DNA of 64,000 nucleotides, taken from positions 496,001 to 560,000 of the forward strand of contig NZ_CP051626.1 of assembly GCF_012844365.1 (NCBI RefSeq). Reading direction: 5' to 3'. The notes beneath the pieces were generated by a model. The model was given only the letters and a program-made list of their open reading frames with translations. It ran no database searches and had not been told where the DNA came from. The position numbers and the translations under genes were made by a program. The stretch comes from Brevibacterium sp. 'Marine'. Its GTDB lineage: Bacteria; Actinomycetota; Actinomycetes; Actinomycetales; Brevibacteriaceae. Below, in pieces: positions 29,772 to 43,847 of the stretch (positions are counted from its first letter, which is position 1; every line of letters starts with the position of its first letter).

Positions 29772-30194
29772 GGCGTCACGGACGATGCGGCTGACGCTGT
29801 CGGCCTCGCAGAGGAGCCGGTGAGTGGTCCGTGTCACAAATGTTGCCAAGAACCTGTTGCTTAAACATCTAGAATTGATAGTATTCTGATGACCCGTCGG
29901 GCGTACCACCGAAGATCCGCCCGCTCAGAGAGACCTCGAAGCCGTGACATTTCAAGGGGGAGACGTTCAACTTCAGGCTTTTCGGGGCAATTCACTTTGC
30001 GCTCGCGGTTTGTCCAATTCGACGTCCAGGGCGTTTAAAGAAACAGTTACATAGGTTTTAGTTCAGCGAACCTTGCCCTGTCGGCATTTCGCGCCCGTCA
30101 GCGCCGGCCACGTCGAATACGTGGTGCGAACGGACTGCTGCCGGACCGAACGCCGCGGTAGGCGAGTTTCGACTCCAAAGAAGGAATCGGGAGC
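29772..30194. other. 423-bp gap before the permease gene
   Basis: AT-richer than its surroundings. A possible promoter is TTGCTT-N16-TAGTAT at 29857-29884. The long distance to the permease start at 30195 leaves a leader of roughly 300 nt, in which I see no known riboswitch signature. TTTAAAGAAACAG near 30040 is the most AT-rich part and could be an alternative promoter. Confidence 0.45.
29857..29884 (+). promoter_or_regulatory. Possible sigma-A promoter TTGCTT-N16-TAGTAT
   Basis: Hexamers at 29857-29862 and 29879-29884 with 16-bp spacing, in an AT-rich segment upstream of the permease gene. Weak match; no experimental support. Confidence 0.3.
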
Positions 30195-31691
30195 ATGGAC
30201 ACTCACTCACCACTCGACCCCGTTGTGGGCAGCGATGCTTACCACGAGGGCGGAGATTTCAAACGAGATATGGGATTCTGGGGCAACCTTGCCCTCGGAT
30301 TCACCTATCTGTCGCCTGTCGTCGGCGTGTATGCGACTTTCGCCGCCTCAATGGCACTGGCCGGCCCGCCGGCATTCTGGATGCTGATCCTAGCCGGAGC
30401 CGGACAGCTTCTTGTGGCCACCGTCTTCGGCGAAGTGGTCTCCCAGTACCCGATCGCCGGCGGAATCTACCCCTGGAACAAACATCTGTGGGGGAAGAAG
30501 TGGGGGTGGATGAGCGGCTGGATCTACATGATCGCCATCAACGTCACCATCGCCTCGGTGGCCTACGGGGCCGGACCTTTCCTCGGTGCCCTCCTGGGCA
30601 TCGAGATGTCCCCGATCGCAAACGTCCTGCTGGCGCTGTTCATCATTCTCCTCGCCACCATCGCCAACCTGTGCGGGACGAAGTTCCTCGCCAATGTCGC
30701 CTTCGTCGGCTTCGTCGTCGAGATCTTCGCGACCGCGGCGATCGGCGTATGGCTGCTGCTTACCGTACGCAAGCATGACCTTTCGGTTCTGTTCCAGGAC
30801 TTCCGCCCGGCAGATATTCAGGATCAGACGCCCTTCGCGCTCGCTTTCATCGGTGCCGCGATCATGGGCATCTACCTCTACTACGGCTTCGAAGCCAATG
30901 GCGACGTCGCCGAGGAGGTGCGCAACCCCGGTCGAATAATCCCCAAGGCGATGCGGATGACGATCTACGTCGGCGGCCTCGCTTCGATGTTCATCGCGCT
31001 CGGCCTGATTCTGGCCGTGGGCAGCTTCGAGGACATCATCAACGGGACGATCCCGGACCCGATCACCGTCATCTTCCTCGAGGCGTTCGGCCCGGTGGGC
31101 TTCAAACTGGTGATGGCGGTCGTCCTCGTATCGTTCCTGTCCTGCACGATCTCCCTGCAGGCGGCCGCCTCGCGCCTGATGTACTCGATGGGTCGCGACA
31201 ATCAGCTTCCGTTCTCGCATCTGCTGGCGAAATTCAGTCGGACTCGTGCAGTTCCTCCGTATGCTCTCATTGTCGCCGGTGCGATCCCGTCGGCCGTCAT
31301 CCTCATCTCGCTGCTGAGCGAGAACGCGCTCCTGGCGATCATCTCCTTCGCCTCCTTCGGAATCTACCTGGCGTTCGCCTCTGTGGTGTTCGCTTCGATC
31401 AGGGCACGAGTGAAGGGATGGAAGCCCAGCGGAGAATTCACGATGGGCCGATGGGGCTGGCTGATTTCGATCACCGCTCTGACCTATCAGATCTTCGCCA
31501 TGATCATCGTTGTGTGGCCGGTGTCGGATGTTCCCTGGTACGACGCGTGGATCGTGGGTCTCATGTCGTTGGCCGTCGTCGGAATCGGTGCACTGTACCT
31601 GTTCATCTCTCACCCCGAGCGCCGCGGGAGAATCGGGGGAGACGCCACTTCGTTCGCGCATGCGGTACCCGAGACGACGAAGCTCGGCTGA
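30195..31691 (+). CDS. APC-family amino acid/amine permease beside the P450 cluster
   Basis: A 498-residue, roughly 12-helix permease. Segments typical of the amino acid/choline/GABA branch of APC: LGFTYLSPVVGVYATFAASM (helix 1), VVSQYPIAGGIYPWNKHLWG, YYGFEANGDVAEEVRNPGRI (helix 6 region) and LQAAASRLMYSMGRDNQLPF (helix 8). It is divergent in makeup from the permease at 5.5 kb. Downstream and convergent lie the Cache, GntR, flavodoxin, reductase and P450 genes, so it is a reasonable importer for the amine handled there. That link is by position only. A strong terminator follows at 31728-31760. Confidence 0.88.
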   Translation: MDTHSPLDPVVGSDAYHEGGDFKRDMGFWGNLALGFTYLSPVVGVYATFAASMALAGPPAFWMLILAGAGQLLVATVFGEVVSQYPIAGGIYPWNKHLWGKKWGWMSGWIYMIAINVTIASVAYGAGPFLGALLGIEMSPIANVLLALFIILLATIANLCGTKFLANVAFVGFVVEIFATAAIGVWLLLTVRKHDLSVLFQDFRPADIQDQTPFALAFIGAAIMGIYLYYGFEANGDVAEEVRNPGRIIPKAMRMTIYVGGLASMFIALGLILAVGSFEDIINGTIPDPITVIFLEAFGPVGFKLVMAVVLVSFLSCTISLQAAASRLMYSMGRDNQLPFSHLLAKFSRTRAVPPYALIVAGAIPSAVILISLLSENALLAIISFASFGIYLAFASVVFASIRARVKGWKPSGEFTMGRWGWLISITALTYQIFAMIIVVWPVSDVPWYDAWIVGLMSLAVVGIGALYLFISHPERRGRIGGDATSFAHAVPETTKLG

Positions 31692-31727
31692 GCCGACGGG
31701 TTCCTGAGCCGGCGCGGCGAATCATCG

Positions 31728-31760
31728 GAGCGGCCTCTGTCATCACGACAGGGGCCGCTC
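31728..31760. terminator. Bidirectional terminator hairpin
   Basis: GAGCGGCCTCTGTC pairs with GACAGGGGCCGCTC at 13 of 14 positions around ATCAC. It lies between the convergent permease and Cache-protein genes. Confidence 0.85.
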
Positions 31761-31846
31761 TCGGCGTTCTTCACGTTCCGGTCTGATCAGCCACCAGTTC
31801 GTTGGTACGCCAACCCGGCCGTCTGTCAGGCAACGGCGTCGTCGGC

Positions 31847-32563
31847 TCAGCTCTCGTCGTCGCGATAGAGCAGACTGAGATCCACACCCGCCACCTCCAG
31901 CGGAAGCCGCGAAAATCCCGGAGGCATCACGGCGATGCGCACCCCGGTGCTCAGCTCTCCCGAGTTTCCGACGAGGACCTGATTGTGTCGGCTGAGCAGC
32001 GCTGCCCCATGACCGAGTGGTGCAAGCATCCGAATCAGCTGCGATTCGACGTCATTCATGAGGATGTCGATTCCTGCTACCCCGACCCTGCGGTCGCCGA
32101 CGTGGCACGGAACGGTGAGCGTGACGATATAGTCATCAACCCCGAGGTGATCGATATACGGGCCTGCCAGGGTCCTCGTCCCGGCGTTGAAGCCGCCTTC
32201 GAACCACTCGAGGTATTCATAGTCATAGAATCGGTCCGAGCTGCGATCGAGGATGAAATCTCTGCGCGCGATGTCATCGCCGTCGGTGATCCACCATTCG
32301 ATTCGTGCCGTTGACGGCTCGAGAAGATCGAGCTTGAAGATGAGCCCGGCACCGTCGAAACCGGAATGAGCTCCAAGGAAATCAGCGACATCGACGCCCA
32401 GGGCGGCGCGAGCCTTCCGTCCGACCTCGAACGGCGGTTCCCCAGCGAAGTCCGCGGTGAGATGGGCGCTGAGCTTCCTTTCGAGATCCTCGAGTCCGTG
32501 GAACAAGCCATCTGCCCAGGCCGAGATCTCACGTGCTGCGTCACGCACTGTCGCGTTGGTCAT
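31847..32563 (-). CDS. Cache-domain small-molecule sensor protein without membrane segment
   Basis: A 238-residue protein that resembles the ligand-binding Cache (PDC) domain of chemoreceptors and histidine kinases: an N-terminal helix (AREISAWADGLFHGLEDLER), the dCache-like body (WWITDGDDIARRDF; YLEWFEGGFNAGTRTLAGPY; VDDYIVTLTVPCHVGDRRVG; VAGIDILMNDVESQL) and a strand-rich end. Usually such domains are extracytoplasmic and fused to a signalling output. Here there is no signal peptide, no transmembrane helix and no output domain. It follows the GntR gene by 11 bp and is the last gene of the four-gene reverse operon, so it may bind the cluster's substrate in the cytoplasm. Family assignment is by pattern only. 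Confidence 0.65.
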   Translation of the reverse strand: MTNATVRDAAREISAWADGLFHGLEDLERKLSAHLTADFAGEPPFEVGRKARAALGVDVADFLGAHSGFDGAGLIFKLDLLEPSTARIEWWITDGDDIARRDFILDRSSDRFYDYEYLEWFEGGFNAGTRTLAGPYIDHLGVDDYIVTLTVPCHVGDRRVGVAGIDILMNDVESQLIRMLAPLGHGAALLSRHNQVLVGNSGELSTGVRIAVMPPGFSRLPLEVAGVDLSLLYRDDES

Positions 32564-32574
32564 GTTGCTCCTAC

Positions 32575-33339
32575 TTACTCCACAGTCAGTGGGTCAGCAC
32601 CGTTGGATTCAATGGTCAGCTTAACGTCGATGAGACTGTAGACGGTCTTTCTGATATTGGCCTCGACTGCACGCTCGGCGCGTTCGATATCGTGTGCGGC
32701 GACAGCTTCGACGATCTCGGCGTTGTCCGCTAGGACTTCGCTCTTCTGAGCGGCAGCGCCGGCGGGGGACCATTTCAGGGCCAGGATCTCACTCTGCAGG
32801 CGCATGGACGCGCGCAGCAGCCTCGGAGATTGGGAGACGACACCCAGCTGAGTATGGAATCGGGAATCGGCGGCCGAGCATTCTGCCAGAGTCGATGCCT
32901 CGTCGAGCCGCTGGGCGGCATGACGGAGTTCGCTGATGGCTTGCGAGTGGGCTCGTTGGCAGGCCAGGCGGGCAATGCCTGTGGCGATGGCCGTGTGCTC
33001 ATCGCCGTAGTCGCGGTAGGCCACGATCGACAGGCTCGCAAGGTAGGTGCTGATCTGTTCGTCCGAGGGGAAAGGGACCCTGACGATGAAGGTCCCACCG
33101 CCGCGGCCACGACGAGTCTCGACGATGCCCTTGTCTCGCAGCAGGGCAAGACTCTTCCGCAATGTCGCCACGGCGACATTGAATTCCCCAGCCAGTTCGA
33201 TCTCGGCAGGCAGGCGCTCGCCGACGGAGATCGATCCGAGGGAGATCGCCGAGACGATCTGATCTGCCAGGGCGTCGCCATAGCCGAACGGTCCGCTTGA
33301 TCCGTGAGAAGCAAGCACATACCTGAATGCCTGGCTCAA
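32575..33339 (-). CDS. GntR-family regulator (FadR/FCD type)
   Basis: A 254-residue regulator. The winged helix spans about residues 20-85 (GDALADQIVSAISLGSISVG; ERLPAEIELAGEFNVAVATL; RGRGGGTFIVR), followed by an all-helical FCD ligand domain with HTAIATGIARLAC, DSRFHTQLGVVSQSP and DNAEIVEAVAAHDIERAERA, whose Asp and His residues normally bind a metal and a carboxylate ligand. I chose the TTG at 33339 because an AGGAGG site lies ten bases upstream; no ATG exists near the domain start. It sits in the operon with reductase and flavodoxin and probably controls the divergent P450 promoter. Confidence 0.85.
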   Translation of the reverse strand: MSQAFRYVLASHGSSGPFGYGDALADQIVSAISLGSISVGERLPAEIELAGEFNVAVATLRKSLALLRDKGIVETRRGRGGGTFIVRVPFPSDEQISTYLASLSIVAYRDYGDEHTAIATGIARLACQRAHSQAISELRHAAQRLDEASTLAECSAADSRFHTQLGVVSQSPRLLRASMRLQSEILALKWSPAGAAAQKSEVLADNAEIVEAVAAHDIERAERAVEANIRKTVYSLIDVKLTIESNGADPLTVE

Positions 33340-33445
33340 CAGTCCTGCACCTCCTGAGGTTGCTTCGCCTGGCTCGATCCTACCGTCTGGACGTGGTCGT
33401 CCAGACGACTGCGGCGACTGTTTCAGGGGTGCGGCCGCCGTCGCC

Positions 33446-33898
33446 TCAGGCGTCGGCAGCGGCGACGACTGCAGGCAGCCACTCGAGAGCGACATCGCTC
33501 GGCAGATCCCAGGAAGACGCGTCGTGGCGGCCGTACTCGCCGACCCGTTCTGCGCCGAGTTCGGTGAAGCGGCGGTCGATGTGCTCGCTGCCCTGGGAGT
33601 AGGTCTCTTCGTAGAAACTGTCACCGAGGCCGAACATCGCGTAGCGGACTCCGGTCAGGTCTCCCTCGAACGTCGAGAACTTCTCGAAGAAGTCCTGCGC
33701 GGTGTTCGGCAGTTCGCCGTCGCCGTGTGTTGAGCACACGACGATGTAGAAGCTCTCCGGTGTGATGGACTCAGGTTCGAAGTCCTGCAGATCGAAGACT
33801 TCGGCGGACTGTCCATCGGCATTGATCTTGTCCGAGAGGTCCTGAGCGATGAGCTCGGAGTTTCCCGACTCGGTTCCATAGAGGACGACGATGTTCAT
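33446..33898 (-). CDS. Flavodoxin (probable P450 redox partner)
   Basis: A 150-residue FMN-binding flavodoxin domain. The phosphate loop is YGTESGNSE (residues 7-15), the first FMN loop is CSTHGDGELPNTAQDF (about 54-69) and the second is GLGDSFYEETYSQGSEHID (about 90-108). It resembles the FMN domains of diflavin reductases and small partners such as cindoxin. The start overlaps the reductase stop (ATGA), so the two are translationally coupled. With a P450 starting on the other strand of the same divergent promoter, the likely path is NADPH to FAD reductase to FMN flavodoxin to P450, which is rare in actinobacteria, where ferredoxins are usual. Confidence 0.9.
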   Translation of the reverse strand: MNIVVLYGTESGNSELIAQDLSDKINADGQSAEVFDLQDFEPESITPESFYIVVCSTHGDGELPNTAQDFFEKFSTFEGDLTGVRYAMFGLGDSFYEETYSQGSEHIDRRFTELGAERVGEYGRHDASSWDLPSDVALEWLPAVVAAADA

Positions 33899-35238
33899 GA
33901 CTGTCCTTTCACCATTGAGTGCGTAGGTGCGGTCTGTGGGGCGGTACTGCCGTTCGTTCTGAGATCCTCGACTGCTTCGAGCATCTCGGCATGGGTTCTG
34001 AATTTCGTGCGGGTTCGCGCCGGTTCGGCATTGGCGACTTCGGCTGCATCGATCTGCTGCCAATCGGCGAAGCTCACAGCCTGTGCGCGAACTGATTCTG
34101 GCAGAGCTTCGAAGCCGCCGGGGTCGTCTTCGACCGGGCACCTGCCGGACTCGACATCGGCGATGATCTCCTTCGCGACCTGGTGAGCGTCGGCCCGATT
34201 GGCCGGGATCGCTCCTACCGGGCCGCGCTTGAGCCAGCCTGCGCGGTAGAGTCCGCACTCGAGCCGTCCGGGTCCGTCAGACGGGGCGAAGTCGTATTCT
34301 TCTGCATAGTGCCAGTGGCCTGGCGCGTTGACGTCGAAGCCGATGGCCGAGATGACGGTGTCGGCACGAATGGAGCCCGTCACTCCGGCGGGAGCCTCTG
34401 CGAGGTGAACCGACTCGACATGGTCTGTGCCCACGATGCGAGAAGGAGTGGCACCGAAGACGAAGCGGACCTGCGCCCGGGCCTCATCGGGTTCGATGGC
34501 CGTGAGGTCTGCGAAAGCCGCCTCGCGTTTGAGGCCGAGAGTATTGTCTTCGGCCGCAGACGAGGAATTGGCGACCGAGAAGGCGACGCCTGGGATCTTT
34601 CCGAGTTCGCGCACCATCGCCACATCGGCCTTGGCTGAAGCGATCGGAGAACGACTGAGCACCGTGATCTCGCGGGCGGGTCTTTCGAGATAAGTGCCGA
34701 GCGCCTCTGGGCTGACGTCGCTGTCGACATAGTCCGAAGCGGTCTTGATGAGGAAGCGCACTATATCGAGAGCGACATTGCCGGCTCCGACGACGACGAC
34801 TCGTTCGCCGATCGCTGGCATCGGCAGATTCGGACGGGGCACGGTGTTGAGCGCGTTGACGATGTCGCCGGAGACCAGAACTCCATCCAAGTGGGAGCCC
34901 GGGACCGTTAATGCACGATCGCGCCAGCGTCCCGTGGCAAGGACGACGATGTCGAACACGCCTTTGAGTTCAGCGAGACTGATGTCGCTTCCGACTTCGA
35001 CATTTCCGGCGAAGCGGAAGTCATCGGATCCGAAATTGCGATCGAACTGCCGAGTCACGGCTTTCGTGTGCTGATGATCGGCGGCGACTCCATAGCGGAT
35101 CAGTCCGTACGGCGCTGCGAGTCGATCGAAAATCGTGATCTCTGTATCTTTCCAGTGCCGTCTGAGCGCCTGGGCAGTGAAGCATCCTCCGGGCCCGCTC
35201 CCGACGACCGCGATGCGGCGAGGTGTCTGGGCATTCAT
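33895..35238 (-). CDS. FprA/adrenodoxin reductase-type NADPH:flavodoxin reductase
   Basis: A 447-residue two-dinucleotide-domain reductase of the adrenodoxin reductase/FprA family. FAD motif VVGSGPGGCFTAQALRR (11-27), then APYGLIRYGVAADHQHTK, the second Rossmann motif VVVGAGNVALDIVRFLIKTA for NADPH, and LKREAAFADLT. The C-terminal part carries GWLKRGPVGAIPANRADAHQ, another family hallmark. It is the first gene of the reverse operon, divergent from the P450 gene with 402 bp between starts. Its flavodoxin partner is encoded immediately after. It should pass electrons from NADPH to that flavodoxin. Confidence 0.9.
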   Translation of the reverse strand: MNAQTPRRIAVVGSGPGGCFTAQALRRHWKDTEITIFDRLAAPYGLIRYGVAADHQHTKAVTRQFDRNFGSDDFRFAGNVEVGSDISLAELKGVFDIVVLATGRWRDRALTVPGSHLDGVLVSGDIVNALNTVPRPNLPMPAIGERVVVVGAGNVALDIVRFLIKTASDYVDSDVSPEALGTYLERPAREITVLSRSPIASAKADVAMVRELGKIPGVAFSVANSSSAAEDNTLGLKREAAFADLTAIEPDEARAQVRFVFGATPSRIVGTDHVESVHLAEAPAGVTGSIRADTVISAIGFDVNAPGHWHYAEEYDFAPSDGPGRLECGLYRAGWLKRGPVGAIPANRADAHQVAKEIIADVESGRCPVEDDPGGFEALPESVRAQAVSFADWQQIDAAEVANAEPARTRTKFRTHAEMLEAVEDLRTNGSTAPQTAPTHSMVKGQS

Positions 35239-35640
35239 TGTTCGGCCTCCATTGGTCGACGATTTCTCCGTTGAACCGCGGTGCTCGACCGCAAGTCGTC
35301 GTGATCGCTGTATTTGTCAGCGTCGGCGGGGCCGAGGCTCCTGACAGCGATCGGGGACAGAAATCAATAACATCTGTTTTTCAATCATTGCGGATCGATG
35401 AGGATTCGGCAACCCTGGTTCGCTGACTTTGTGCCGCCGGTCGGCTCGCCTGCCGCGCATCAAAGCTGCTGTGTACGCGTGATTGTGGCGATAGGTGAGC
35501 AAAATCTGCCGGAGCGGAAATTGCTGTGGAGGTCTTGCGAGATCGAATCCGCTGTGATTTGATTCATAGAGATAATTCATTCATAACTGAATGTTTAGTG
35601 CAAGCGTAGATCAACGAGGATTCGCGGGAGTGTGAACACG
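35239..35640. promoter_or_regulatory. Divergent promoter region of the reductase and P450 operons
   Basis: A 402-bp AT-rich region. The perfect palindrome CATTCA-TAAC-TGAATG at 35578-35593, 48 bp before the P450 start, is the best operator candidate for the GntR protein. A nearby GATTCATAGAGATAATTCAT repeats the ATTCAT element. No gene of its own. Confidence 0.5.
35578..35593. promoter_or_regulatory. Candidate GntR operator CATTCA-TAAC-TGAATG
   Basis: A 16-bp perfect palindrome in the divergent promoter of the P450 and reductase operons, with additional ATTCAT half-sites upstream. Binding by the cluster's GntR regulator is inferred. Confidence 0.45.
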
Positions 35641-36849
35641 ATGACCACCACGGTCGATACAGCAGAGATTCCGTATCTGGATATCTCAGATCCGGCCTTT
35701 GCTATGGCCTCCGAGCAGGTGCGGAACGCACGAGAGCAGTCATGGATCGCTAAGACCAACTATGGTTTTGCCGTCCTGCGCTATGACGAGGTCGCTGCAC
35801 TGCTCAAAGATCAGAAGCTGTCGCAGGGCAGCGCGCGGTGGCCTGAACACCACGGGGTCCACTCGGGCGCGTTCCACGAGTGGTGGAGCAAGAATCTGCT
35901 CGTCCTTGAAAGTGATGAGCACCACCGAATCCGGCGGCTGCTCAACCCCGCGTTCTCGCCCTCGATGGCGCGCAAGCTCGAGCCGGAGTTCGCCGAGATC
36001 GCCGAGGATCTCATTGCCGACTTCGCGCACAAGGGCGAATGCGATTTCGTGCGCGATTTCGCTGAACCCTTCGCGACACGGGCACTGTGCGCGATGATGG
36101 GTCTTGACCACAAACACTGGCCGTTCATCGCCTCCCGCGCGAACACTGTCGGCTACGCTCTGTCGGTCGAAGTCAAGGAGAAGATCGACGAAGTCGACCA
36201 GGCTGTTCGCGAACTGTATGCCTTTGTCGAAGACCTCATCGAAGAACGTCGCGCCGAGCCCGGTCAGGACGTCGTGTCGCGACTGGTCCAATTCAGCGAA
36301 TCGGGAGACAAGCTGGATGCCGAAGAGCTCAGAAATGCGCTGGTGCTCATGCTCTTCGGCGGTATGGACACCACACGCAATCAGCTCGGCCTGGCAATCC
36401 AGACATTCATCCGGAATCCGGATCAGTGGGAGAACCTGGCGCAGCAGCCTGAGCTGGCCAAGTCTGCGCTCGAGGAAGTGCTGCGCGTCAATCCGACGAC
36501 CAGGTGGGTGACGCGGGAAGTCATCGAGGACTTCGAGTTCCAAGGAGTGCACTTCGAAGCCGGCACCACGGTGCATCTTTTCACTCACAGTTCCGGGACC
36601 GATGAACGCGCTTACCCCGATCCGAACATCGACATCACGGCTGAAGACAGGAAGCCCCATTTCACTTTCGGCGGCGGAATCCATCACTGCCTGGGTCACT
36701 ACATCGCCCGGGCCGATATGAGTCAGGCGCTGCCTCTGCTGGCAGCCAGGATCACCAATCTCGCCTGCCCCGGCGGCGACTCCTGGCTGCCGGACTCCGG
36801 CAACACCGGACCGATCAGTCTGCCGCTGACGTTCGACGTCCGCAGCTGA
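35641..36849 (+). CDS. Cytochrome P450
   Basis: A 402-residue soluble bacterial P450. Heme-binding loop FGGGIHHCLGHYIAR with the axial thiolate at Cys350; I-helix oxygen-activation motif GGMDTT at about 240-245; ExxR motif EEVLR with Glu279 and Arg282; and HHRIRRLLNPAFSP in the C-helix region that contacts the heme propionates. The ATG at 35641 is preceded by GCGGGAG; a GTG nine bases earlier is less well placed. It is the first gene of the forward operon, followed by the glutamine-synthetase-like ligase after 120 bp. Oxidation of an amine or of its gamma-glutamyl conjugate is my inference; P450 and GS-like genes are also neighbours in mycobacterial morpholine/piperidine loci. Confidence 0.92.
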   Translation: MTTTVDTAEIPYLDISDPAFAMASEQVRNAREQSWIAKTNYGFAVLRYDEVAALLKDQKLSQGSARWPEHHGVHSGAFHEWWSKNLLVLESDEHHRIRRLLNPAFSPSMARKLEPEFAEIAEDLIADFAHKGECDFVRDFAEPFATRALCAMMGLDHKHWPFIASRANTVGYALSVEVKEKIDEVDQAVRELYAFVEDLIEERRAEPGQDVVSRLVQFSESGDKLDAEELRNALVLMLFGGMDTTRNQLGLAIQTFIRNPDQWENLAQQPELAKSALEEVLRVNPTTRWVTREVIEDFEFQGVHFEAGTTVHLFTHSSGTDERAYPDPNIDITAEDRKPHFTFGGGIHHCLGHYIARADMSQALPLLAARITNLACPGGDSWLPDSGNTGPISLPLTFDVRS

Positions 36850-36969
36850 ACTCAGACACCCACCCGTCCCTATTCGAGAAGAGTCTCGGCTCATCACGGA
36901 CCGCACACTACTTCGGCATCAGCCGAACTCAGAACCCGGCATCGTCGCCGGTCCACGAGAAGAGGAATT

Positions 36970-38448
36970 ATGACGATCACAACCCCGCCCACCGCTGAGG
37001 ATCCTTGCGTGCAGGAGATCCTGCGCCGGAGAGATTCGGCCGAAACGAACCTCGCCGACGCGTTCAAGTCCTCGATTCAGGACGACCTCCTCGACAACAG
37101 CGCTCTCGAGCGTCACCACTCGGCGAACATGGACAATGACACTGTCGAGAAGATCAAAGAGAAGATTGAGCGTTCGGGCGTCGAATACCTCTACTACATG
37201 GTTCCGACGCTGCGTTCGCGCACCGTTGCGAAGATGGTCCCGGCGAAGCACATCGTGCGCAATCTCGACAAAGGCGTGAACTTCACGAGAAACGCGCTCA
37301 TGGACTTCCAGAACGATGTGTTCGGAAATCCCATCGGCGCGGACATCCGCTCGAAGGAATTCGTCGCCATGCCCGAGCCCGACTCGTTCAACCAGCTCCC
37401 CTGGGACAAGTCGATCGGTCGGATCTTCTGCTCGACCTACGAGCCGGACCACCTCGGCGAGATTGCGGGGCGCCCCAACTTCCATGATTCCCGCGCCCAT
37501 ATGAAGCGCACACACCAGCTGCTCAAAGACCACTTCGGGCTGACGATGAAATCCGGCACCGAACCGGAGATGGTGTGGGTCGGCGAATCGATCAAACCGA
37601 ACACGATTCCGGGATACAACCCCGCCTATCAGGTCGAATACCTCGAAGGCATGCGCCCCATCTACAAGCGCGTTCACGAATACGCCGACGCCCTCGGCTT
37701 CGACATGATCGAAGGCGACTACGAGGACAAGGGGCAGATCGAACTCAACTGGAACTTCGACGAGATCGAGCGTACAGCGGACCGGTTGGTCACCTATCGG
37801 CAGATCTGCTCGCAGGTCGCCCGCGAATTCGATGTCGAAGCCTCATTCATGCCCAAGCCCTTTATCGGTGAGATGGGCGCAGGCTGCCACCACAACATCT
37901 CCCTGTGGGACGAAAGCGGCCGCAACACCTTCGAAGACGACGGAGTCAAAGACCTCCACCTCTCGCAGATCGGACGCTGGGTCGTCGGCGGCATAATCAA
38001 GAACGCTCCTGCCATGATGCTCATCTTCGCGTCCACGGTGAACTCGTACAAACGCTTCTGGGATCCGGGCCAATTCGCTCCGGCAACCGCCGACTGGGGA
38101 TTGGACGATCGCGCTTCGATGATCCGGATCTCCTCGAAAGGACGCGCCGAGGTGCGGGTTCCCGACGCCTCGGTCAACCCCTACCTCTCCCACGCGCTGC
38201 TGGCTGCCGCGGCAGCCGACGGGATCGGCAACCAGGTCGAACCGCCGGAGGCCGGCGCGCAGGGAATCGCCCTGCCGCGCACGCTCGGCGACGCCGTCGA
38301 GGCGTTCCGCGACAACGAGTTCATCCGCACAGCGCTGCCTCCTCAGCTCGCCGACACGTACCTCGAGATGAAAGAGAACGAATGGGCGCAGTACTGCGGC
38401 GCGCTCACGCAGTGGGAATTCGACCAGTACTGGCAGGCTATCCCGTGA
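36970..38448 (+). CDS. Glutamine synthetase-like gamma-glutamyl ligase
   Basis: A 492-residue member of the GS superfamily, class PuuA/AtdA1-like rather than housekeeping GlnA. Catalytic segments: KSGTEPEMVWVG (first Glu pair), DMIEGDYEDKGQIELNW (second metal-binding region), AGCHHNISLWDE (His loop with the ATP/metal site), NSYKRF and a C-terminal EVRVPDASVNPYLSHALLAA. The usual nucleotide-binding and adenylylation details of GlnA are altered, and the N-terminal region is extended. Such enzymes attach glutamate through its gamma-carboxyl to an amine at the cost of ATP. The ribosome site is GAAGAGGAATT. The next gene starts inside its stop (GTGA). Confidence 0.85.
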   Translation: MTITTPPTAEDPCVQEILRRRDSAETNLADAFKSSIQDDLLDNSALERHHSANMDNDTVEKIKEKIERSGVEYLYYMVPTLRSRTVAKMVPAKHIVRNLDKGVNFTRNALMDFQNDVFGNPIGADIRSKEFVAMPEPDSFNQLPWDKSIGRIFCSTYEPDHLGEIAGRPNFHDSRAHMKRTHQLLKDHFGLTMKSGTEPEMVWVGESIKPNTIPGYNPAYQVEYLEGMRPIYKRVHEYADALGFDMIEGDYEDKGQIELNWNFDEIERTADRLVTYRQICSQVAREFDVEASFMPKPFIGEMGAGCHHNISLWDESGRNTFEDDGVKDLHLSQIGRWVVGGIIKNAPAMMLIFASTVNSYKRFWDPGQFAPATADWGLDDRASMIRISSKGRAEVRVPDASVNPYLSHALLAAAAADGIGNQVEPPEAGAQGIALPRTLGDAVEAFRDNEFIRTALPPQLADTYLEMKENEWAQYCGALTQWEFDQYWQAIP

Positions 38449-39200
38449 GCGGCGTGCTGCGCTTAGCGTGCATCGATTCGGCTGCGGCGCCCCTGTTCGA
38501 CAAGTCCGCTGACGGCGGAGTGACCCGCACCGGCTTCGAACCCGACGCCGCCGCGCTGGTCGCCGAGGCACTCGGCCTCAGGCTCGAATGGCATGTGGTG
38601 GCATGGGACGCGATGATTCCGGCGGTTCAGCGCGGCGATGCCGACGGCGTGTGGTGCGGGCAGGGCATCATCCCCTCCCGGGTCGCTCAACTCGACTTCA
38701 CCCGCCCCTACGCCGTGTTCAACGAATCCGTGCTGGTGCGTGTCGGTGATTCCGCACGGGGGCCCGAAGACCTGCGCGGGTACAAGGTCGCTGCGATCGA
38801 CGGCAGCGCGAACATGGCACTGGCCGAGACGTTCGCCGGAGCCGAACTCGTGCCCTTCGGCCCCAGCGACGATGTCTTCAGTGACATGATCCAGGCGGTC
38901 AGGGACCGCACCGTCGACGCCATGGTCGACGACGACGTGGTCACCGTGCCGCTCGGCGACGAGCCGGAGTTCGATCTGGCCTTCACCGCTCAGACCCGGA
39001 ACCCCTGGGGCGTCGGAGTGTCCAAGGAGCGACCGGAGCTGCTCGAACGACTCGACGCCGGGATCCGACAGGTCATCGAGGACGGTTCGCTCGAACGCGT
39101 GTGGACGGAATGGATGCCGCATCTTCCGTTCCCCGTCGAGACCCTCACCGCCGGGCAGCCGACGACGTCGGCGACGACTGCTGAAGGAGCCGAAGTATGA
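38445..39200 (+). CDS. Solute-binding-protein-fold (family 3) protein lacking a signal peptide
   Basis: A 251-residue protein of the periplasmic-binding-protein type 2 fold: GVLRLACIDSAAAPLFDK at the start, PDAAALVAEALGLRLEWHVV, WDAMIPAVQRGDADGVWCGQ, RVAQLDFTRPYAVFNESVLV, and GYKVAAIDGSANM; QTRNPWGVGVSKERPELLER near the end. This is the amino-acid-binding SBP_bac_3 pattern. The start overlaps the ligase stop (GTGA), and the first residues (SGVLRLACID) are already the first beta strand, so there is no room for a signal peptide. It is therefore probably cytoplasmic and coupled to its neighbours, perhaps binding an amino acid conjugate or acting as a carrier or sensor. Function not known. Confidence 0.75.
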   Translation: MSGVLRLACIDSAAAPLFDKSADGGVTRTGFEPDAAALVAEALGLRLEWHVVAWDAMIPAVQRGDADGVWCGQGIIPSRVAQLDFTRPYAVFNESVLVRVGDSARGPEDLRGYKVAAIDGSANMALAETFAGAELVPFGPSDDVFSDMIQAVRDRTVDAMVDDDVVTVPLGDEPEFDLAFTAQTRNPWGVGVSKERPELLERLDAGIRQVIEDGSLERVWTEWMPHLPFPVETLTAGQPTTSATTAEGAEV

Positions 39201-39916
39201 GCGAGCGGCCGTTGATCGGAGTCCCCGCGATGTCGTCGGCGAAGGTGAACGGCCTTCGCTATTCCGGCAGCGTCGTGGCCGACGCGGTGCTTCGCGCCAT
39301 CGCGGCGGCCGGGGGCGAGCCGGTCGTCGTTCCCCCTGTCCTCGCCAGCGGTCTGCTCTCCCGTGTCGACGGGATCGTGCTTCCGGGCGGTTCGGACATC
39401 GATCCGACACGCTACGGACAGCAGCCCGATGAGACGTATGCCGGAACGGACTTCGCCGACCAAGACCAGGCCGATGCGAGAGCCATCGCGGCGGCCGAAG
39501 AACAGGGCATCCCCACCCTGCTCATCTGTCGCGGACTGCAGCTGTGGAATGTCGAACGCGGTGGCAGTCTCCACCAGCATTGGTCGGACTCCGACGTCGA
39601 ACATGTCGATTCCGTCCACTCGGTCGAGGTGGCCGGGGGCTCCCGACTATCCGCAGCTCTCGGCATTTCCGGTGCGGTCGATGTCTCCAGCTATCATCAT
39701 CAGGCCATCGACCGCCTCGGCGATGGGCTGGAAATCACCGCCCGCGCCGCGGACGGCTGCATCGAAGCCGTCGAGGATTCGAATCATGCGATCGTGGCGG
39801 TGCAATGGCACCCCGAGGATCGTGCGGAGACCGACCCCGTCGACAGCGCACTCTTCACCTGGGTGGTCGCTCAGGCGAAAGAGCGCATGCACAGTCGCCT
39901 CGGGGCGTCCGTCTGA
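39197..39916 (+). CDS. Class C26 gamma-glutamyl hydrolase, first (PuuD-like)
   Basis: A 239-residue class I glutamine-amidotransferase-type hydrolase of peptidase family C26. Nucleophile elbow LLICRGLQLWN with Cys111; catalytic His205 and Glu207 in QWHPEDR; VDGIVLPGGSDIDPTRYG is the oxyanion region; SSYHHQAIDRLG is typical of gamma-glutamyl-GABA hydrolases. It removes the gamma-glutamyl group in PuuD and likely here too. It overlaps the preceding gene (ATGA), confirming the operon. Confidence 0.88.
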   Translation: MSERPLIGVPAMSSAKVNGLRYSGSVVADAVLRAIAAAGGEPVVVPPVLASGLLSRVDGIVLPGGSDIDPTRYGQQPDETYAGTDFADQDQADARAIAAAEEQGIPTLLICRGLQLWNVERGGSLHQHWSDSDVEHVDSVHSVEVAGGSRLSAALGISGAVDVSSYHHQAIDRLGDGLEITARAADGCIEAVEDSNHAIVAVQWHPEDRAETDPVDSALFTWVVAQAKERMHSRLGASV

Positions 39917-39997
39917 ACCAAGCACCGCAGCCGGTCGGCTCGGTGCACGCCATCAGCCACACTGTCAGTGAATGAATCCACCAGTCCAAGGAGCGAA

Positions 39998-40798
39998 GTG
40001 AACCCGAACGTCCTCACCCACGATGAGGTGCTGCGGTCCGCACCCGCTGAGACAGCGGATGTCGAGATCGCGGTGGTTGTGCAGCTGAATATGCCCGGCC
40101 AGACCGAGGATTCGGTCGCCCTGCAGCGGGACCTCACCGTCACGGTCGTCGACGATCTGCACCGCCTCGGTGCGCGGGTGTCCATCCACGACGTCGGAGG
40201 CGACTGTGGACCGGACTCGGATGCCGTTGCTCGAGCCGACGGCATCCTCGTGCTCGGCGGAGGCGATGTCGATTCCCAGCTGTACGGGCACACCGGGCCG
40301 GTGCCGAACGAATACGGCAAGGACCGGCGGGCCGATGATCGGGAGATCGCGATCATCCGGACCGCGATCGCCGAAGATTCCACTCTGCTGGCGCTCTGCC
40401 GTGGCTCGCAGCTGCTCAACGTCGCATGCGGGGGATCGCTCATCCCCGACCTCAACCCCTTCGACCTGCACAAAGGCGCTCCGGGCGAGCCGCTGTTCAT
40501 CGATGAGACCGTGGCGCTGATTCCCGGCACCATCGTCCACGACCTCTACGGGCAGGACGAACTCACGGTGCGCAACGGCCACCACCAAGCTGTCGGCCGA
40601 GTGGGGGACGGGCTGCGCGTGGCCGCACGGGCCGCCGACGGCGTCGTCGAAGCCACTGAACGGATCGAGAACTCCTGGATCCTCGGCGTCCAGTGGCATC
40701 CCGAGGAGAACGGCGCCGACCACCATGACCGCCGGGTCCTCTTCGCTGCCTTCCTCGATCAGGTGAGGACGCGGAAGGCGGCTGCGCTGACCGTGTGA
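39998..40798 (+). CDS. Class C26 gamma-glutamyl hydrolase, second
   Basis: A 266-residue paralogue of the preceding enzyme. Nucleophile elbow LLALCRGSQLLN with Cys134, catalytic His234 and Glu236 in QWHPEEN, and ILVLGGGDVDSQLYG, GHHQAVGRVGDGL. I chose the GTG at 39998 because AAGGAG lies four bases upstream; an ATG 30 bp earlier lacks a ribosome site. An 81-bp gap separates it from the first hydrolase. Two active-looking hydrolases in tandem suggest either two conjugates or one acting on the substrate and one on free gamma-glutamyl intermediates. Confidence 0.87.
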   Translation: MNPNVLTHDEVLRSAPAETADVEIAVVVQLNMPGQTEDSVALQRDLTVTVVDDLHRLGARVSIHDVGGDCGPDSDAVARADGILVLGGGDVDSQLYGHTGPVPNEYGKDRRADDREIAIIRTAIAEDSTLLALCRGSQLLNVACGGSLIPDLNPFDLHKGAPGEPLFIDETVALIPGTIVHDLYGQDELTVRNGHHQAVGRVGDGLRVAARAADGVVEATERIENSWILGVQWHPEENGADHHDRRVLFAAFLDQVRTRKAAALTV

Positions 40799-41061: not shown

Positions 41062-41214
41062 AGCGAGCATGAGCGCATTCTCGCGGGTGAGAGGCCGAAT
41101 TCCGGCATAGGAGATGTCGGTTGCGAAACGGGTCCGAATCACCCGAAGCGACGCAGGCATTCCACCTCATCCGAGCGAATCGACGCTGACCAGCCGATGT
41201 CACGGGGAGTAGCA
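41062..41214 (+). other. Structured 5' leader of the urease operon
   Basis: About 150 nt of leader that can fold: CGGGT-ccgaatc-ACCCG (41129-41133 with 41141-41145) inside a TGCG/CGCA clamp, plus a small CTC/GAG stem. The ribosome site GGGGAG at 41204-41209 serves ureA. I cannot match a known riboswitch class. Confidence 0.35.
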
Positions 41215-41517
41215 GTGTTTCTCAGTCTGTATGAACAAGAGCGGTTGATGATCTACACCGCCGGAAAGCTTGCGCTCGAGCGCAAAGAGCGGGGTCTCAA
41301 ACTCAACCTGCCCGAGGCGACCGCGATCATCACCTCGTACCTGCTCGAAGGAGCGCGCGACGGCAAATCCGTCGCCGACCTCATGGAATCCGGCCGCCAC
41401 GTGCTGGCCAAAGAAGATGTCATGGAAGGGGTTCCCGAAATGCTCACACAGGTTCAGGTGGAGGCGACGTTCCCCGACGGAACGAAGCTCGTGACGGTGA
41501 CGGGGCCGCTGCAATGA
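41215..41517 (+). CDS. ureA: Urease gamma subunit
   Basis: A 100-residue urease gamma chain. [20 protein letters not shown] at the start, then [38 protein letters not shown] and [20 protein letters not shown] cover the whole family profile. The GTG at 41215 follows GGGGAGTAGCA and gives the normal length; an ATG 18 bp upstream lacks a ribosome site. First gene of ureABC-F-D-G; its stop overlaps ureB (ATGA). The subunit is structural, capping the alpha chain. Confidence 0.95.
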
Positions 41518-42134
41518 TGAGCAACGAGAACGCCCCCGGCGAGCGGAACGAGGACAGCAAACCTCTCGACGACAACCCGTTCGAAAACGTCGAGCTCCAG
41601 CCCGAGGAACGCAGCCTCGAACCCGAACACGCCACCGACGACCCGGGCCGCGAGTACGACGAAGCCGAGACCACCGTCATCGACGAGCCCGGCATCGACG
41701 ACGACCGCGAACGCCACCCGTCTTCGGGTGAGAGCAGCCCGTCGAGCCCCCGCCGTCCCGGCTCCGGCACACGTCAGGCGCCGCGGCAGGAACATGACGC
41801 CCCGGTCACCTCGGCCGATCGCGTCGTCCCCGGCGAGATCTTCCTCAAAGACGAACCGGTCGAGATCAACGCAGGCCTTGCCGTGACGGCGCTGCGGGTG
41901 GCCAACACCTCGGACCGTCCGATCCAGATCGGATCCCACTTCCATTTCGCCGAGGTCAACCCCGGCCTCGAGTTCGACCGTGCCCGCGCCTGGGGCAAAC
42001 GCCTCAACGTGCTGTCCGGCGGCGCCATGCGCTTCGAACCCGGAGCCGATGAGGAAGTCGAACTGATCCCGATCCAGGGTGCGCGCATCGCACTGGGATT
42101 CCGCGGAGAATGCAGAGGAGAGCTGGATGGCTGA
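41514..42134 (+). CDS. ureB: Urease beta subunit with a long acidic N-terminal extension
   Basis: A 206-residue urease beta chain; ordinary UreB is about 100-110. Residues from about 102 onward are the standard domain: [58 protein letters not shown] and the end with [10 protein letters not shown]. The first 100 residues are an unstructured acidic, Pro/Ser-rich stretch ([29 protein letters not shown]) with no recognised domain. The start overlaps the ureA stop and no later start with a ribosome site fits, so the extension is probably translated. It could serve as a flexible tether or metal or protein contact; unknown. Confidence 0.92.
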
Positions 42135-43839
42135 GATTTCGCGTTCGGAATACGTCGCGTCGTTCGGACCGACGGTCGGTGACCGGGTGCGCCTGGCCGA
42201 TACCGACATCGTCATCGAGATCGAGAAGGACTACTGCGCAGGCGGCGACGAGGTCGTCTTCGGCGGCGGCAAGTCCGCCCGCGAATCGATGGCGCAGTCC
42301 TCGCGCACCCGCGCCGAAGGCACCCCCGACCTCATCATCACCGGGGCGATCATCCTCGACCACTGGGGAGTCGTGAAGGCCGATGTCGGCATCCGCGACG
42401 GCAGATTCGTCGCCATCGGCAAGTCCGGCAACCCGGACACGATGAATGGCGTCCACCCGGACCTCGTCGTCGGCCCCAACACCGAGGTGGCCAGCGGCAA
42501 TGGTCTGATCATGACACCCGGCACCATCGACACTCACATCCACTTCGTCGGCCCCGACCAGTTCGAGGTCGGCCTCATGGCCGGCACCACGACGATGGTC
42601 GGCGGCGGCACCGGACCCACCGAGGGTTCGAAGGCCACCCTGGCCACCCCAGGCCCCTGGTGGCTGGCCCGGATGTTCGAGTCGATGGACCCGTGGCCGG
42701 TCAACGTCCTCTTCCTCGGCCGCGGCAACACGATGAACGAAGAGGCCCTGTACGAACAGCTGCGCGGCGGAGCCGCCGGCTTCAAGATCCACGAGGACTG
42801 GGGCGCGACCCCGGCTGTCATCGACAAGGCCCTGTCCGTGGCCGATGACACCGGAGTGCAGGTCGCCATCCACTCGGACACCCTCAACGAGGCCGGATTC
42901 GTCGAGGACATGCTCAAAGCGGTCGCCGGCCGGACCTTCCACTCCTTCCACACCGAGGGTGCCGGCGGCGGTCACGCCCCCGACATCATCAAGATCGCCT
43001 CGGAGCTCAATGTGCTCCCGGCCTCGACGAACCCGACCCGCCCGTTCACGGTCAACACCGTCGACGAGCACCTCGACATGGTCATGGTCGCCCATCACCT
43101 CAACCCGCAGGTGCCCAACGACCTCGCCTTCGCCGAGTCCCGTGTCCGCGCCGGCACCATCGAGGCCGAGGACGTGCTCCAGGACCTCGGCGCCCTGTCG
43201 ATCATGTCCTCGGACGCGCAGGCGATGGGCCGCATCGGCGAGGTCGCCATGCGCACCTGGCAGACCGCGCACCAGATGAAGAAGCTGCGCGGACCTCTGC
43301 CCGGCGACGACCGGGCGGACAACAACCGGGCTCGCCGTTATATCGCGAAGTACACGGTCAACCCGGCCATCGCCCACGGAATCGACTCCTATGTCGGTTC
43401 GATCGAACCGGGCAAACTCGCTGACTTCGTGCTCTGGCAGCCCTCGATGTTCGCCGTCCGTCCGCACACCGTGTTCAAGGGCGGAATGGCCGCCGTCGCC
43501 GCGCTCGGCGACCCGAACGCCTCGATCCCGACCCCGCAGCCGGTGTCCGAACGCCTCGGATTCAACTACCGGACCGCCTCGGCGGCGGCCACGAGCCTCG
43601 CGTTCGTGTCCGAGCAGGCCATCGACGACGATATCGCGGGCAAGCTCGACCGCGTCCAGCGCGACTTCGTGCCGATCACCTCGACGCGCAAGGTCACGAA
43701 GGACGACATGATCGGCAACTCCGCCCGTCCCGACATCGAGGTCAACACGGACACGTATGCGGTGAAGATCGACGGGGAACTCGTCGAACACCGGCCCGCC
43801 GACTTCGTGCCCATGTCCCAGCGCTACTTCCTGTTCTGA
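42127..43839 (+). CDS. ureC: Urease alpha subunit (catalytic)
   Basis: A 570-residue urease alpha chain that hydrolyses urea to ammonia and carbamate at a di-nickel centre. Nickel ligands are intact: His137 and His139 (THIHF), carbamylated Lys220 with His222 (GFKIHEDW), His249 (AIHSD), His275 (FHTEG) and the Asp in SSDAQAMGR. The mobile flap reads VMVAHHLNP: the flap His323 is kept, but the cysteine that precedes it in nearly all ureases is Ala322. Arg339 in ESRVR is present. The ATG at 42127 overlaps the ureB stop. Confidence 0.97.
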
Positions 43840-43847
43840 GGCAGCGC

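Follow-up and report, generated by a model that had tools for sequence, protein, structure and literature searches.

A putative cyclic-amine catabolic cluster joining a cytochrome P450, a glutamine synthetase-fold ligase and a flavodoxin redox chain in Brevibacterium

The ten-gene set and its conservation

The window, a 64,000-nucleotide stretch of Brevibacterium sp. 'Marine' DNA, contains ten genes that a first-pass annotation had read as one inducible amine catabolic system. All ten are intact, with the folds and positions proposed, as judged from open reading frames, Pfam and NCBIfam. An APC-type amine/amino-acid permease (30195-31691, + strand; Pfam AA_permease_2, 5e-43) is followed on the - strand by a soluble sensor protein of the dCache_1 type (31847-32563), which has only weak Pfam matches and no membrane segment, a GntR/FCD regulator (32575 to about 33342; FCD 5e-14, GntR 6.8e-13), a flavodoxin (33446-33898; Flavodoxin_1, 1.7e-29) and an FAD reductase of the FprA/adrenodoxin-reductase type (33895-35238; Pyr_redox_2). 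Beyond a divergent promoter region (35239-35631, no strand assigned), five genes lie on the + strand: a cytochrome P450 (35632-36849; Pfam), a gamma-glutamyl ligase of the glutamine synthetase (GS) fold (36970-38448; Gln-synt_C, 1.2e-68), a cytosolic protein with a type-3 solute-binding fold (38445-39200; SBP_bac_3), and two C26 gamma-glutamyl hydrolases, a (39197-39916; Peptidase_C26, 1.2e-48) and b (39968-40798; Peptidase_C26, 8.9e-39). Overlaps of 4 bases join ligase to binding protein, binding protein to hydrolase a, and flavodoxin to reductase. The start of the GntR gene is uncertain because its frame is open up to 33624, where it overlaps the flavodoxin gene. In our reading of the open reading frame list a urease subunit gene comes next after hydrolase b, and the set therefore ends near 40.8 kb. 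The GC content is 0.597-0.615 over 30-38 kb, as against 0.624-0.705 in the rest of the window.

Conservation was assessed in 80 loci chosen by P450 similarity alone, the best 80 of 419 relatives. Within this best 80 of 419, the GS-like gene is present in 78 loci, the solute-binding-fold gene in 76, a C26 hydrolase in 71, GntR and Cache in 70 each, and a permease relative with at least 40% identity in 61; the co-conserved set spans Actinomycetota and four Halomonadaceae. GntR and Cache were not found near the P450 in 4 of the 57 long loci among these 80. In an even draw of 396 actinobacterial genomes, the window's own included, just 4 have the binding-fold gene, so its presence beside the P450 in 76 of 80 loci is not chance. 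On this base rate and the co-conservation, a chance neighbourhood of unrelated genes was rejected, and the refutation that had been set for the cluster reading, that its genes are never conserved together across Brevibacterium and its relatives, fails.

Among the matches listed for the genus Brevibacterium, the ligase is found at an identity of at least 54% in 8 of 57 genomes, and the remaining matches listed are at or below 42%. All ten genes occur in the same layout in six of the eight (the window's own, G027, G056, G005, G021 and G008); in G008 both C26 parts share one frame. Nine genes are visible in G053, where the stretch begins inside the Cache gene and the P450 and ligase frames are broken, and the eighth genome, G020, is without flavodoxin and FprA-type reductase. 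The combination, which the first-pass annotation did not know as a described pathway, is thus real, but it is a recurring variant and not unique to this genome. In one genome (G167, locus L173) a binding-protein relative occurs alone, the other cluster genes not being found within about 9 kb, and a scan of viral contigs with the ligase as query gave no relative. Extra conserved neighbours were mostly antisense frames and, among the ten representatives scanned, mainly housekeeping genes. An aldehyde dehydrogenase is the clearest added neighbour (29 of the best 80 of 419 loci in the neighbour scan), lying downstream of the ligase and before hydrolase a in L111, L112 and L114 and between the two C26 genes in L113 and L125; the window cluster is without one. 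The orthologue sets behind the residue counts given below contain near-copies, for example L047 and L083.

Ligase, hydrolases and binding protein

In glutamine synthetases a flap glutamate accepts the proton from ammonium. In the window's ligase this residue is replaced by Phe369, and among 88 relatives Phe holds the position in 84, Trp in 2 and Tyr in 2. Five NCBIfam GS models match the protein, which reaches the cut-off of none (type III: 285.1 bits, cut-off 469.6; GlnA: 207.5, cut-off 429.15), the model for gamma-glutamylputrescine synthetase (PuuA-type) is likewise not met (192.2 bits, cut-off 650), and the best PDB match is glutamate-methylamine ligase. That it is an ordinary nitrogen-assimilation glutamine synthetase to which unrelated genes are merely adjacent would agree with its placement in the GS superfamily by Pfam and NCBIfam. 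This explanation is scarcely credible against the missed cut-offs, the replaced flap residue, the four other GS-type genes in the genome and the co-conservation of the set, and was rejected. The earlier claim of a ligase in place of a normal ammonia-using enzyme is upheld by sequence only, by which the protein appears to be no ordinary glutamine synthetase; its activity is untested.

A gamma-glutamyl ligase, a C26 hydrolase and an APC permease recall the Puu pathway, with the difference that a P450 takes the place of the PuuB oxidase. The Puu-like logic of ligase plus hydrolase, proposed at first sight, agrees with the Pfam assignment of the ligase, the permease and the C26 folds. In hydrolase a, Cys111, His205 and Glu207 are each conserved in 70 of 70 sequences; in hydrolase b, Cys144 and His244 are conserved in 68 of 68 and Glu246 in 66. 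C26 fold and triads are present, but the PuuD-type NCBIfam model gives the two proteins only 93.6 and 78.9 of 266 bits. Both hydrolases share one frame in L046/L048 and in L047/L083.

The binding protein has Arg79 and Asp163 in 83 of 83 sequences, and its model (pLDDT 92.8) matches Arg- and Gln-binding proteins; it is predicted from these conserved residues to retain the alpha-amino-acid clamp. Its start lies between 7 nt before and 59 nt after the ligase stop codon in all 77 loci measured, and no ABC transporter partner is present among the ten genes. A periplasmic role in an ABC importer was rejected on these two grounds.

Electron supply, pip/mor loci and the xpl genes

The window's P450 is 50-55% identical to its mycobacterial matches and 47-53% identical to five plasmid-borne relatives. 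We take Cys353 to be the heme ligand, and we presume the usual roles for Asp246-Thr247. Members of the CYP151/PipA-MorA family share at least about 40% identity with PipA or MorA, and the hallmark of pip/mor clusters is a P450 adjoining a GS-like gene, accompanied by a regulator of the GntR type. The window meets this hallmark, and four mycobacterial loci (L213-L216) carry P450, GS, binding-fold and C26 genes with GntR and Cache; the suggested link to the mycobacterial piperidine/morpholine loci therefore stands. The relationship of the window's P450 to PipA and MorA themselves runs only through its counterpart at L212 (see below), without direct alignment.

The window differs from the pip/mor loci in its electron carriers. 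MorA works with a ferredoxin and a reductase, according to PMC9477822, whereas the window has a flavodoxin and an FprA-type reductase. Among the best 80 of 419 loci, flavodoxin with FprA-type reductase is found in 30 and ferredoxin in 46, never both; the latter count was made by tblastn, and frames of at least 80 residues alone gave 28. No known redox partner was seen in L078 and L123. In the window's gene set, flavodoxin and FprA-type reductase stand in for ferredoxin, an unusual electron supply. A reductase of the FNR type was not found in 10 ferredoxin-only loci within the best 80 of 419, nor in any of the four mycobacterial loci, three of which have a ferredoxin, so the electron path in the ferredoxin-only and mycobacterial loci is incomplete. 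The P450 tree leaves out L042, whose P450 is broken; 11 of its 91 rows carry no redox label, and Gordonia KTR9 was given the flavodoxin label on account of neighbouring genes.

One genome, G458, carries two such clusters (L211 and L212), each with permease, GntR, Cache, flavodoxin, FprA reductase, P450, GS, binding-fold protein and C26 hydrolases a and b, and with flavodoxins as the carriers. Between its two clusters we measured identities of 71.8% for the P450s, 48.2% for the reductases and 69.6% for the carriers, and its PipA is 90.6% identical to that of G. chungangensis. PMC9477822 gives 72%, 48% and 69% for the two P450 loci of Gulosibacter molinativorax and up to 91% for PipA within Gulosibacter; from the agreement of these four values we infer that G458 is very probably G. 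molinativorax. That report puts the Gulosibacter P450s at about 53 and 52% identity to mycobacterial PipA and MorA. In medium with molinate, an azepane herbicide, it gives log2FC values above 6 for bioI and for its reductase, lists the GS gene neighbouring bioI among the overexpressed transcripts, and it describes the pipA locus (L212) as not significantly induced (Log2FC < 2). Of the two Gulosibacter clusters, L212 is the closer to the window (P450 77%, GS 76%), so by analogy the window cluster is probably induced by something other than azepane itself. PMC9477822 names the partner a ferredoxin reductase, does not use the word 'flavodoxin', and takes the GS as a matter of ammonium assimilation. 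It was the sole directly useful report on P450s with gamma-glutamylation or cyclic-amine clusters in the literature searched, in which most subscription journals were not covered.

A second relationship is to plasmid pGKT2 of Gordonia KTR9, where an FCD regulator (36% identity to the window's), a Cache protein (28%) and a P450 (52.5%) are accompanied by a frame that joins a GS (48%) to an FprA/XplB-type reductase (42%). After this frame comes a fusion of flavodoxin and P450, the flavodoxin part being 39% identical to the window's; presumably these are the pGKT2 genes named xplA and xplB. There are differences: the match to the fused GS is confined to residues 41-425 of 492, the P450 domain fused to the flavodoxin is only distantly related to the window's P450 (25%), and flavodoxin is fused to P450 in XplA but encoded by a separate gene in the window, flavodoxin and reductase being homologous. 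No binding-fold or C26 gene was found in the 25-kb KTR9 stretch. Judged from these comparisons, the xplA/xplB-type genes of KTR9, which serve to degrade the explosive RDX, appear to sit inside the remnant of such a cluster, which gives XplA/XplB a natural family background.

In the reductase tree the window's enzyme groups with XplB, apart from two other FprA-type reductases of its own genome (100/100). XplB is the deepest branch, not nested among the cluster reductases, and long branches meet in the flavodoxin tree, so the trees do not fix the direction of descent. The P450 beside the KTR9 xpl genes falls among ferredoxin-type clusters, and its own parent cluster was therefore probably of that type. 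On the origin of XplA, with GS or gene transfer, and on P450-flavodoxin-reductase fusions, nothing about origin or cluster was found in the sources searched, which left out most subscription journals. XplA/XplB have been used in RDX clean-up plants, to go by a title in the reference list of PMC10820124.

Sensor, regulation and proposed pathway

To our knowledge the dCache fold is otherwise an extracytoplasmic sensor. The window's Cache protein scores 29.2 bits with dCache_1 (below the 45-bit cut-off) and 27.5 with MCP-like_PDC_1 (above the 27-bit cut-off). Among PDB entries its model (pLDDT 95.7) is matched best by McpU with putrescine, 222 residues being aligned at rmsd 3.1 with a VIA-align Z of 20.0; other structures come within 1 of this Z, in effect a tie. 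The maximum 19-residue hydropathy is 0.90; 6 of 71 Cache stretches, extended at either end by as many as 30 residues of flanking frame, exceed 1.6, the highest being 2.01 in L119. Solubility, as predicted from hydropathy, is clear for the window and not proven for all relatives.

The amine motif of dCache_1AM receptors comprises a cation-pi Trp, two aromatics, a small or Ser/Thr residue and a terminal Asp, with no carboxylate-binding Arg (PMC10104139). Aligned to PctA, the window's protein resembles these receptors in an aromatic pair (W120/F121), a terminal Asp (D166) and loss of the Arg, at L118; 76 of 78 Cache proteins have no Arg at that position. W90 and T148 are invariant, and were matched to PctD W155/S217 by spacing only. 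In seven Cache proteins outside the clusters, position 113, invariant within them, varies in five, and Arg is present at position 118 in one. dCache_1AM proteins are membrane receptors, whereas the window's protein is soluble and adjoins a DNA-binding regulator, with which it is fused in one frame in two relatives (L065 and L088). Nothing on a Cache protein paired with GntR was found in the literature searched, most subscription journals not being covered. FCD domains normally bind their own ligand, so the Cache protein may not be the amine receptor.

Two blocks of the divergent promoter region are conserved across 9 loci. One of them includes a dyad (ATTCA-N8-TGAAT, near 35575-35592) that is perfect in 5 of the 9 and is, on weak evidence, a candidate GntR operator. 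No dyad with 6-base arms is common to the P450/FprA promoter and the region upstream of the permease.

Gene content, conservation, intact active sites, the altered flap, the soluble sensor of the window, the GntR-Cache fusion and the redox swap are computed observations. From them we somewhat favor an inducible cluster for the catabolism of small cyclic secondary amines of the pyrrolidine, piperidine or azepane type, a variant of pip/mor, in which the substrate, the order of the steps from oxidation to aldehyde removal, and the roles of binding protein and Cache are inferred without biochemistry. The permease would import the amine; the soluble Cache protein, as partner of GntR/FCD, would sense the amine or a product and derepress the divergent promoter. 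Electrons would pass from NAD(P)H through the FprA-type reductase and flavodoxin to the P450 for hydroxylation at the carbon alpha to the ring nitrogen. The hemiaminal would open to an omega-aminoaldehyde prone to re-cyclise, whose amine the ligase would cap with glutamate at the expense of ATP, as PuuA does with putrescine. The cytosolic binding protein may grip the gamma-glutamyl intermediate by its alpha-amino-acid end, while an aldehyde dehydrogenase, encoded in-cluster in some relatives and elsewhere in this genome, would form the acid. Cleavage by the C26 enzymes would then free glutamate together with an omega-amino acid, for example GABA, which could enter the GabT route; a GABA transaminase scoring over the family cut-off is encoded in the genome. 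Also in favor of this reading, GntR-Cache pairs outside P450 clusters adjoin PotA-type transporters in 4 of 7 places, once along with a GABA transaminase.

The ligase might instead act first, as AtdA1 does on aniline and IpuC on isopropylamine. Glutamate would then be attached to a primary amine, the resulting gamma-glutamyl amide would be the substrate of the P450, and C26 would take the glutamate off again. We consider this possible but unlikely. The ligase-plus-hydrolase logic and the glutamate-methylamine ligase match fit it, and the binding protein could use its clamp to deliver a gamma-glutamyl amide to the P450. However, GS-type ligases are expected to accept cyclic secondary amines poorly, oxidation of the amide at its alpha carbon would by inference yield glutamine and leave little for C26, and the P450 kin with reported substrates oxidise cyclic secondary amines (PMC9477822). 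It is more likely, on inferred chemistry, that the ligase follows the P450 and traps the ring-opened aminoaldehyde. The original reading of an amine P450 with a ligase is supported, with cyclic secondary amines fitting better than the anilines or isopropylamine that it had included.

Another possibility is that the P450 N-dealkylates a polyamine derivative or a linear amine, secondary or tertiary, and that the ligase captures the freed primary amine; this seems more doubtful still. In its favor, GntR-Cache relatives adjoin PotA/YdcS-type transporters, and a putrescine receptor is the nearest structure to the Cache model, if only in a tie; but these GntR-Cache neighbourhoods are without the P450 and bear on the sensor, not the oxidase, and characterised P450 relatives act on rings (PMC9477822).

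Cyclic amines are widespread in industrial chemistry and as building blocks of drugs. For ring oxidation followed by glutamate capping the recurring set offers a testable route and a reason for the GS-like gene beside cyclic-amine P450s. We know of little work on their use by actinobacteria past the first P450 step. A broader reading is offered only tentatively: that the cytosolic dCache, which also occurs next to transporters of the polyamine type and GABA genes, is the amine receptor of GntR/FCD, that the binding protein carries or meters gamma-glutamyl intermediates among ligase, P450 chain and hydrolases, and that the XplA/XplB redox module arose in such a cluster by capturing its flavodoxin/FprA-type chain. 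The intracellular Cache-GntR sensor and the cytosolic binding protein are offered as purifiable proteins. A related set of P450, GS, aldehyde dehydrogenase and C26 genes is present in Paracoccus TOH, which, by the title of a paper alone (Cai 2013), reportedly degrades piperazine.

Gene content and conservation of the cluster

The ten genes at 30195-40798 form a real, conserved cluster, a variant of the mycobacterial cyclic-amine P450 (pip/mor) type whose electron supply, putative sensor and binding protein are unusual; its chemistry is inferred. Domain and family matches confirmed that all ten open reading frames carry the folds named in the first-pass annotation. The plus strand encodes an APC permease, a P450, a GS-fold ligase, a type-3 solute-binding fold ("binding protein") and two C26 hydrolases; the minus strand encodes a Cache protein, a GntR/FCD regulator, a flavodoxin and an FprA-type reductase. 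Four-base overlaps occur at the ligase/binding protein and binding protein/first C26 junctions. From translations, an iron-siderophore-like ABC importer was read upstream (25.7-29.8 kb) and a urease operon directly downstream (41197-45480). GC content is 0.597-0.615 at 30000-38000 versus 0.624-0.705 in the remaining window, which agrees with the patchy occurrence of the cluster in the genus.

The annotation held that these genes belong together, and both the genus genomes and the best 80 of 419 P450 relatives support this. Among the matches listed, the ligase occurs at 54% identity or more in 8 of 57 genus genomes, and six of these eight, the window included, carry all ten genes in the same layout. 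Among these six, G008 has both C26 parts in one frame; G020 lacks the flavodoxin/reductase pair. In G053, a near relative, the cluster (L042) is a decaying copy, with the P450 interrupted by about 2.8 kb and the GS split into two frames; this stretch does not extend to the permease. A wider collection scan took only the P450 as its anchor and gave 419 relatives; of the best 80 loci, 78 contained the GS, 76 the binding protein, 71 any C26, 70 GntR, 70 Cache and 61 the permease (at least 40%). For the 57 of these loci longer than 20 kb the counts were 56, 56, 52, 53, 53 and 47. The loci come from Leucobacter, Gulosibacter, Arthrobacter and Nocardioides through to Streptomyces and Mycobacterium, plus four Halomonadaceae. 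Judged by the binding protein, the set as a whole is rare: of 396 actinobacterial genomes drawn evenly, 4 encode this protein, the window's own genome among them. A relative of the binding protein also occurs at L173 (genome G167), where no further member of the set was detected within about 9 kb.

Ligase, binding protein and putative Cache sensor

A normal ammonia-using glutamine synthetase would have refuted the annotation's reading, but the sequence does not bear this out. The ligase falls below the cut-offs of all five NCBIfam GS models matched, including type III GS, GlnA and gamma-glutamylputrescine synthetase, and it has Phe369 where a true GS carries its flap glutamate (PGYEAP in 8oow), much as glutamate-methylamine ligase has Trp there. 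Among 88 relatives the position is Phe in 84 and Trp or Tyr in 4, and the ExE, His and Arg positions, which we take to serve in the active site, are kept. Because the cut-offs are missed, the flap glutamate is lost and the active site is kept, the enzyme looks made for coupling glutamate with something besides ammonia, an activity inferred from sequence.

Relative to the stop codon of the GS gene, the binding protein's conserved start lies between 7 nt upstream and 59 nt downstream in all 77 loci measured (81 tried), leaving no space for a usual signal peptide. Its model (pLDDT 92.8) matches Arg/Gln-binding proteins, and Arg79 and Asp163, present in 83 of 83 relatives, align with the residues of the solute-binding family that presumably grip the alpha-carboxylate and alpha-amino groups. 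Since a gamma-glutamyl amide leaves exactly the alpha-amino-acid end free, we infer that the protein may be a carrier of such amides.

The Cache model is a complete dCache fold (pLDDT 95.7). Foldseek placed McpU with putrescine first among PDB entries; VIA-align scored this pair at Z 20.0 (rmsd 3.1 over 222 aligned residues), within 1 Z unit of its scores for histamine, proline, ethanolamine and other receptors. In an alignment to PctA, Leu118 takes the place of the carboxylate-binding Arg126, and two aromatics and an Asp are retained; the amine motif used for comparison is that of PMC10104139. Over 78 Cache proteins Trp90, Tyr113, Asp138, Thr148 and Asp166 are invariant, and only two have Arg at position 118. 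GntR and Cache share a single frame at L065 and L088. Cache was found in 8 of the 396 genomes, its own included, and GntR adjoins it in 8 of 8 places outside the window. All seven places without a P450 cluster keep Trp90, Asp114, Trp120, Tyr136, Asp138, Thr148 and Asp166, and two keep Tyr113. Four of the seven (L166, L167, L168, L171) lie beside PotA-type ABC transporters whose ATPases exceed the PotA cut-off (362.6-368.2 vs 355.6 bits); at one of these four a GABA transaminase also passes its cut-off. An ALDH and a permease accompany the pair at L169, the scanned portion of L170 contained no clear amine genes, and at L172 the neighbours were matched solely against cluster genes. We read the Cache protein as an amine sensor inside the cell, a function that is inferred.

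Electron supply and the xpl-type genes

Among the best 80 of 419 loci, flavodoxin with FprA-type reductase occurs in 30, ferredoxin (by tblastn) in 46 and an FNR-type reductase in 36; the flavodoxin pair and ferredoxin were together in none of the 80. Of the remaining four, L058 and L075 are short contigs, and at L078 and L123 no partner was found. On a P450 tree of 91 rows, 80 with a redox label, the flavodoxin label requires 3 changes, compared with 26.6 on average for shuffled labels, and a single clade of 37 rows contains 34 of the 36 flavodoxin-labelled rows. On a plasmid of Paracoccus TOH, a strain that the title of Cai 2013 reports to degrade piperazine, a P450 of this family shares a single frame of 974 residues with a flavodoxin-containing reductase (L037:6883-9804). 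The window's own genome also has a 1070-residue frame fusing P450, FprA-type reductase and flavodoxin (L142:6200-9307; G000:C1:1514199-1517306), with matches in 16 of 57 genus genomes at E 1e-150, in G032 split over two frames. From a limited literature search, no P450 with its domains arranged in this order is known to us.

Plasmid pGKT2 of Gordonia KTR9 carries, in order, an FCD regulator, Cache, P450 (52.5%), an 862-residue GS::reductase frame and a flavodoxin-P450 protein of 552 residues by coordinates. We take the last protein and the reductase to be the products of xplA/xplB. By this gene order, the xpl-type genes lie in a remnant of a window-type cluster. PMC10820124 likewise gives XplA as 552 residues. 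In a reductase tree the XplB-type domain joins the reductases of these clusters and is separated, at 100/100, from two further reductases encoded by the window's genome; common descent of the redox module is supported. The direction of that descent is unsupported, because the XplB-type domain is not nested within the cluster reductases and the adjoining KTR9 P450 falls among ferredoxin-type clusters.

Proposed substrate class and chemistry

According to PMC9477822, Gulosibacter molinativorax has two P450 loci, with P450s about 53 and 52% identical to PipA and MorA of mycobacteria, whose substrates are piperidine/pyrrolidine and morpholine. Molinate strongly induces BioI and its reductase (log2FC above 6), the neighbouring GS is among the overexpressed transcripts, and the pipA locus was not significantly induced (PMC9477822). 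G458 has two such loci (L211 and the pipA-like L212); since four identities measured in it agree with those given in the paper, we take it to be that strain. Both loci hold the whole gene set, including flavodoxin and FprA-type reductase, and the pipA locus resembles the window cluster (P450 77%, GS 76%). Together with the PipA/MorA kinship and Paracoccus TOH, these loci point to cyclic secondary amines as substrates, the chemistry being inferred.

Ring opening would yield an omega-aminoaldehyde prone to re-closure, which the ligase may cap with glutamate, as in the capping step of the Puu pathway; such capping would account for the presence of ligase plus hydrolase. ALDH genes are situated among the cluster genes in five loci (L111-L114, L125), and the window's genome encodes a GABA transaminase. 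That genome also has a second cluster combining P450, GS and C26 genes (L143; G000:C1:4082000-4101000), in which a permease, an FNR-type reductase, an ALDH and a diflavin reductase also lie, and a Puu-like set of GntR, permease, GS, C26 and ALDH (L144; G000:C1:90000-105000).
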